This document shows, one piece after another, positions 11,437-12,850 of a stretch of DNA of 64,000 nt. The position numbers and the translations under genes are program-made. Position 1 is the first letter of the stretch. The number at the start of each line of letters is the position of its first letter. Origin of the DNA: Candidatus Pullichristensenella avicola (GTDB lineage Bacteria; Bacillota; Clostridia; Christensenellales; Aristaeellaceae); NCBI GenBank assembly GCA_018711655.1, contig DVIA01000065.1:62001-126000 (forward strand). Direction: 5' to 3'. The notes beneath the pieces are model-generated. The model was not told where the DNA came from and ran no database searches. It was given only the letters and a program-made list of their open reading frames with translations.

Positions 11437-11611
11437 GCCCGGCGGCGATGGACCCCGGCCCGCCCGGTCGCGCCCACGCGGCTGCGCGCTTTGAAGGCAT
11501 GGACGCGCATCCGGAGGCGTCCGGACGCCCGGGCGGGCCTACTCGCTGAAACAGGCGAACCAACCGGCTGAGGGGCAGGCGGCCGGCCGCGATATCCTTC
11601 AATGTATCGCA

Positions 11612-11742
11612 GAGCGCAAAAAGGCGCTTAGGGCCGCACTCGACAAAGTGACCTAAGCGCCAAGGCCCCGGAAGCGGGGGACGGTTGTTTTCCTGCCTTT
11701 ACCCGTCCCCTACATCATACCACAAGGCGGCGCGGAAATCAA
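11612..11742 (-). ncRNA. Candidate small RNA (~95 nt) with promoter and terminator beside array 1
   Basis: On the minus strand TTGATT (11742-11737) and TATGAT (11719-11714) are 17 bp apart. About 45 nt of transcript with an 8-bp GGGGACGG/CCGTCCCC stem is followed by a perfect 10-bp hairpin GGCGCTTAGG/CCTAAGCGCC (11661-11652 and 11632-11623) and TTTTT. No start codon with a ribosome site lies between. It reads away from CRISPR-like array 1. It could also be an independent terminator plus an unrelated promoter. The loop portion contains an inner CACT/AGTG stem. I cannot assign it to a known RNA class. Confidence 0.45.
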
Positions 11743-11855: not shown

Positions 11856-12716
11856 CCGCACCTCGCGCCCGCGCGGAGGGGGCGAATTGCTGCTTGCGGG
11901 CTGCGTGGTAAGCAACCGCCGCACCCGCGCTCGCGCGGGGGAGACGCGACGGCGTGCGCCTCAACCAGGTGCTGCTCAACGCCGCACCCGCGCTCGCGCG
12001 GGGGAGACGAAACCGTCCAGCGGCTACACGGCCTCGCCGACCGCCGCACCCGCGCTCGCGCGGGGGAGACAGGCGCGATGGAGTACACGACCTGCCTGCT
12101 GGGCAGCCGCACCCGCGCTCGCGCGGGGGAGACGGACAGACTGGCTCGGCAGCTTAGATAATGCTATGCCCCCACCCCAGCGCGGAGGGGGCCCGATCTA
12201 CCGTCAGACGCTCATGTTCCCGCCGCCCCACCGTTTTGTTCGTTGGTGCGTGGCTCCCCACCCCCTGCGCTCGCGCGGAGGGGGCCAGCGCCGGCAGCAG
12301 GTAAGCGTCCTCATAGATTCCCACCCCCGCGCCCACGCGGAGGGGGCGAAGTATTTGCGGTTGCCGCCCTGCGTGTAGCTCCCATCCCCGCACCCGCGCG
12401 GAGGGGGCCTACATCAGAGTTGCTGTATTCGGTCGCCATAAACCCCACCCCCGCGCCCACGCGGAGAGGGGCTGGGCAACTGACTTCCGGGTTTTCGGCG
12501 GATCACCCCCACCATGCATCCGCGCGGAGGAGCGTCTGAGTATATTTACCGTCATGCAGTGTCCGCCGCCGCACCCGCGCCCGCGCGGAGGAGGCGTGTC
12601 ATGCGCGTCACCAATTCCATGATACATAAGCGTACCCCTATGCCCGCGCGGAGGACGCGTTGGCTATATTGCTCATCAGCGCGGTTCCTTCCGCACCCCA
12701 CGCCCGCGGGGCGCGC
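11856..12716. CRISPR. CRISPR-like array 1: ~14 degenerate I-E-like repeats, period 61-63 bp, no cas genes
   Basis: Repeats of 28-30 bp end at about 11884, 11945, 12008, 12070, 12133, 12194, 12286, 12348, 12409, 12472, 12534, 12596, 12659 and 12716. Four copies (11918-12133) are identical with core CCCGCGCTCGCGCGGG and tail GGAGAC; the rest share a second core, CGCGCGGAGGGGGC or close variants. Spacers of about 32-35 bp are all different and of lower GC. Several read as open peptide fragments (for example DGVRLNQVLLN, ETVQRLHGLAD, AMEYTTCLLG), as expected for captured phage or plasmid genes. Repeat size, palindrome and period fit type I-E. The interval 12195-12255 is a double-length spacer or a lost repeat. 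Orientation and leader are unclear. Confidence 0.75.
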
Positions 12717-12789
12717 TTCCGGCGTTTGCCGCAATGCACATTTTCAGTTTCATTTTTGGTAAATTCGCCGAATATCGCCCCGCACATGC

Positions 12790-12817
12790 TTGCTTTTCGC
12801 GGGAATATTGCTATAAT
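12790..12817 (+). promoter_or_regulatory. Promoter of fba
   Basis: TTGCTT (12790-12795), 16-bp spacer, TATAAT (12812-12817), 34 bp before the start at 12851. It sits in an AT-richer stretch immediately right of array 1. Confidence 0.65.
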
Positions 12818-12850
12818 AAGGATAGGTCTTAAGGAAAAGGAGTGTGTCTT

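Follow-up and report, generated by a model that had tools for sequence, protein, structure and literature searches.

The window analyzed here, a stretch of 64,000 nt from Candidatus Pullichristensenella avicola, contains at 11856-12716 a genuine CRISPR array of 14 recognizable GC-rich, partly palindromic repeats and one truncated copy (Table 1). The direct repeats are near-regular, with a period of 61-63 nt, and are separated by unique spacers of near-constant length (33-35 nt); the core CGCG[CG]GG[AG]GG is encountered 10 times in the array as against 0.05 expected occurrences (Markov, composition-matched resamplings). In these respects the initial sequence-only reading of the region, which had reported periodic repeats with unique spacers and, among them, four identical adjacent copies, holds good. 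Upstream of the array, at 11605-11690, we noticed an inverted repeat (GGCGCTTAGGG...CCTAAGCGCC), which has no match in Rfam; a search of the 8-16 kb segment of the window against Rfam likewise returned no match.

The identical copies are the 28-nt repeats R2-R5 (GCCGCACCCGCGCTCGCGCGGGGGAGAC), and R7-R10 constitute a second type of 29-30 nt (CCCCACCCCCGCGCCCGCGCGGAGGGGGC), each member of which displays private mutations. R1 and R12 are mosaics that combine a left arm CCGCACC, as in R2-R5, with a right arm GGAGGxGGC, as in the other copies. Strong alterations mark each of R11, R13 and R14, and the 92-nt interval after R6 contains a truncated repeat, R6b (CCCACCG, ~12227), along with a truncated spacer. 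The division into two consensus forms proposed earlier is hence valid for the identical block, but the remaining copies do not make up a single family. With R1 and R12 as intermediates, there is no need to invoke a joining of arrays from two sources, which had been offered as an explanation. Nor do the identical repeats occupy the end of the array as had been stated, the outermost R1 being a variant.

Table 1. Features of the CRISPR array and its flank (positions in the window; contig coordinates are given for spacer targets)
Feature	Positions	Strand	Remarks
Repeat R1	11856..11883	-	Outermost low-coordinate copy, mosaic of two forms
Repeats R2-R5 with intervening spacers S2-S4	11918..12133	-	R2 11918-11945; R3 11981-12008; R4 12043-12070; R5 12106-12133
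Spacer S2	11946..11980		35/35, host hybrid histidine kinase gene, C13:99232-99266
R6, S6 and start of R6b	12168..12234	-	R6 shortened; start of truncated R6b at 12227-12234
Spacer S6	12193..12226		33/34, prophage tail-region gene (F5/8 type C domain), C66
Repeats R7-R10	12256..12471	-	Second form
Spacer S7	12286..12318		32/33, host family-2 glycosyltransferase gene, C71:25459-25491
Spacer S8	12348..12380		33/33, NlpC/P60 endolysin-like gene, C59:38038-38070
Repeats R11-R14	12505..12716	-	Copies with the most changes; R12 resembles R2-R5
Spacer S12	12596..12626		30/31, start region of phage integrase gene, C54:52894-52924 (outside the window)
A+T-rich intergenic stretch	12717..12841		44% GC, between array and fba; leader side in I-E orientation

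Several features point to a type I-E array read from the minus strand, an assignment drawn from the anatomy of the locus. The repeats are 28-30 nt long with hairpins, the spacers have the length seen in the I-E array that the genome carries on another contig (C19), and R2 fits the layout of I-E repeats, a comparison that we treat as suggestive only. The earlier description of the array as CRISPR-like and I-E-like is thus supported by its length, hairpin and period. On the I-E reading the leader would lie on the high-coordinate side. This candidate leader side carries the most altered copies, and the identical block is situated near, though not at, the opposite end. The fba-proximal part of the A+T-rich stretch is conserved in congeners that have no array; in two of the congeners (G005 and G006) different genes are found upstream of fba and the array is absent in the stretches examined.

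No remnants of cas genes above chance were detected in the window. The genome (2.38 Mb, rated 100% complete, in a draft of 76 contigs), which was covered by searches and by inspection of selected stretches, possesses two Cas1 loci, on contigs C19 and C43. The former is part of a complete I-E operon (cas3, cse1, cse2, cas7, cas5, cas6e, cas1 and cas2), with every gene exceeding the threshold set for its model (core or subtype), and is accompanied by an array of 15 spacers and 16 full repeats, the latter without a difference over 27 nt. This is the sole such operon and its repeat is unrelated to that of the window array; it also includes the only Cas6e of the genome and the only Cas3 match above the curated cut-off. 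On this contig (L017:1-10578) the uniform array runs past the contig start, and the end of cas2 lies only a few bases from the array. The C43 locus (L018:6640-15456) combines an ORF of ~1390 aa, which we term Cas9-like from its size, position and sequence, with a type II Cas1 and an array of 41 repeats at a 66-nt period. The arrays of both loci are uniform and neither repeat resembles that of the window array. The label 'Cas-less' given to the array earlier therefore applies to the locus but not to the genome, and the genome-wide search for type I-E cas genes that had been suggested did recover a complete operon, albeit one with an unrelated repeat. The C19-type repeat ATCTGCCCCACGCATGTGGGGATGAACCG is common to the congener G002. 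The I-E repeats of relatives show no similarity to the window array repeat, which was found nowhere else in the genome, and a paired-repeat pattern, which would miss divergent relatives, retrieved no similar array from 396 genomes of the order. Four matches to the repeat pattern in the GTDB species collection were, upon inspection by eye, not CRISPR arrays.

A search against the host genome revealed that five of the 13 complete spacers match it at 97-100%, i.e. the assembled genome carries the targets of these spacers. The boundaries of the matches fall exactly on the repeat edge, as expected of spacers captured from other DNA, and self-matches are either at least 97% identical or absent, with intermediate ones missing. 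Phage-related sequences account for three of the targets, ordinary chromosomal genes for the other two. Next after the S8 target gene comes a small phage-family gene, and the contig with the S6 target (L080:9510-16826) holds a prophage tail module encoding tail tube, tail terminator and tail fibre-like proteins. Congeners carry three of the target sites at 90-94%, i.e. 6-10% different, which suggests that acquisition was recent relative to species divergence. As a control, none of 18 tested spacers of the type II array matched the genome at 97-100% (one weak match of 29 nt at 86% identity, E=0.03), whereas from the C19 array 15 spacers yielded a single partial 27-nt match to a tandem-repeat region; the excess of self-matches in the window array over the control arrays is significant, if with small numbers (Fisher p=0.006). 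A short degenerate tandem repeat (CCCCGGCACAGGCGG-like) is present on contig C47 near 54-314 (L057), several copies of which match one C19 spacer. The S2 target is flanked by CTT after the match, corresponding to an AAG PAM in the I-E orientation. However, AAG at the S7 target lies on the side opposite to that expected and the S6, S8 and S12 targets have no AAG, so that the PAM is not consistent across the five self-targets.

For the other spacers of the array a convincing source was not found. Phage and plasmid DNA, against which spacer matching had been proposed earlier, gave only weak or GC-driven hits; the informative matches lie in the host genome, which that proposal did not include. Viral contigs contained neither exact 21-mers of S1, S4, S5, S9, S10 and S13 nor the longer S6 and S12 patterns, and the unmatched spacers recovered only short matches to unrelated genes from 70 genomes of the family. 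In the comparison with phage and plasmid DNA, a match to arginine deiminase at 12551-12583 spans a spacer/repeat boundary and was treated as a chance hit.

Taken together, these observations make it likely that the locus is an orphan type I-E-like array, with spacers taken up from its own genome and no link to interference. The I-E-like length, period and hairpin of the repeats, a window devoid of cas genes, the confinement of Cas6e and the strong Cas3 match to C19, beside an unrelated repeat, and the five self-spacers all support this proposal. A Cas1-Cas2 pair able to use the array probably drew on the host genome and its resident phages in the past, and the array would later have lost, or never had, a matching Cascade and Cas3. 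The self-spacers would then persist because no crRNA from the array drives interference, and the alteration of the repeats may at once stem from this inactivity and be one reason why self-spacers are tolerated. With no matching cas operon found, the array probably represents an inactivated relic and not a functioning immune memory.

Two points weigh against this reading. The PAM is not consistent among the self-targets, and repeats and spacers show a contrast that plain decay does not predict. Compared with whichever of two reference repeats fits better, the ten variant repeats show 47 differences over 290 positions (16%), whereas the matched spacers differ from their targets at 3 of 166 (1.8%), a roughly ninefold contrast (p=2.5e-7) whose exact ratio is soft, as the reference repeats were picked by eye and the spacers detected by similarity. 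Given these values and the lack of intermediate self-matches, uniform drift since acquisition is an unlikely cause of the repeat variation, and the excess of repeat over spacer variation is unexplained. The earlier suggestion of an array that has stopped acquiring and is drifting accordingly appears only half right, as the variation of the repeats is not simple drift.

One possible refinement of the orphan proposal, compatible with it but tentative, is that change was specific to the repeats. The GC-rich quasi-palindromic repeats may mutate by template switching or error-prone copying at each spacer insertion, or they may be under selection to break, which would silence self-targeting crRNAs; the spacers would stay intact in either case. 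Apart from the divergence contrast itself, the altered repeats flanking the self-spacers S6, S7, S8 and S12 and the relatively recent acquisition suggested by the congeners favor such a process. However, R2-R5 are identical although the self-spacer S2 is located between the intact R2 and R3, and the sample is small and subject to the same ascertainment. We would regard it as doubtful that the repeats change far faster than the spacers through inaccurate copying per insertion or selection to break them around self-spacers; were this so, the array would record a stepwise, repeat-by-repeat disarming of autoimmune memories. Rather unlikely, too, is a plain fossil, i.e. an old array in which acquisition stopped and neutral drift followed, with R2-R5 as a stretch that escaped. 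The truncated and altered repeats, the missing partner cas genes and the uncorrelated neighboring repeats (Mantel r=-0.15, p=0.20) would fit this scenario, but at the divergence of the repeats the 166 matched spacer bases should show ~27 differences as opposed to the 3 observed (p=1e-9), and the all-or-none self-matches also speak against it. It is very unlikely that faulty assembly or sequencing of GC-rich palindromes, or the mixing of strains, produced the differences among the repeats: despite the fragmented draft and the high GC content of the repeats, the spacers between them agree at 97-100% with contigs assembled independently, the array is interior to a 136-kb contig and the C19 array is uniform. 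Finally, a regulatory array whose crRNAs would repress matched host genes is hardly credible, notwithstanding the five host matches and the proximity of the S8 and S12 targets to gene starts, since the orientation of the match with respect to the gene varies among targets, the S2 and S7 targets are mid-gene, the targets have no common function and the array is not conserved in the congener stretches examined.

The orphan array provides a compact natural case, in which an array rich in host-derived spacers exists in one cell beside two apparently intact, unrelated CRISPR-Cas systems. If the divergence contrast holds in other strains, one could ask whether repeats mutate at insertion or are broken by selection. 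Self-targeting spacers have been reviewed, with tolerance attributed to cas loss, mutation or anti-CRISPR proteins (PMC6990116); one survey cited there found mobile and non-mobile self-targets to be about equal. Orphan self-targeting arrays are a known kind, and this locus is a further case. As described in the same review, Lactobacillus acidophilus NCFM has an inactive self-targeting array in which six spacers target the genome and whose cas cassette has been deleted. Like that system, the array reported here has no cas genes and several spacers from its own chromosome, which would be tolerated since interference is absent; unlike it, as far as described there, this genome retains a type II locus and an intact I-E operon, the repeats of both being unrelated, and in the orphan array the repeats are highly variable. 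Extensive self-targeting is shared with the type I systems of Xanthomonas albilineans, for which 24 self-targeting spacers are reported (PMC10810201); in that account cas genes are present and tolerance is due to anti-CRISPR proteins, whereas here matching cas genes were not found. The I-E systems of C19 and of the congener G002 resemble the window array in subtype-like repeat length, hairpin and the period of 61-63, but differ in their repeat, its uniform copies, the adjoining cas operon and the near-absence of self-spacers. What is unusual in the present case is the coexistence with two other apparently intact systems, together with the contrast between repeats and spacers.
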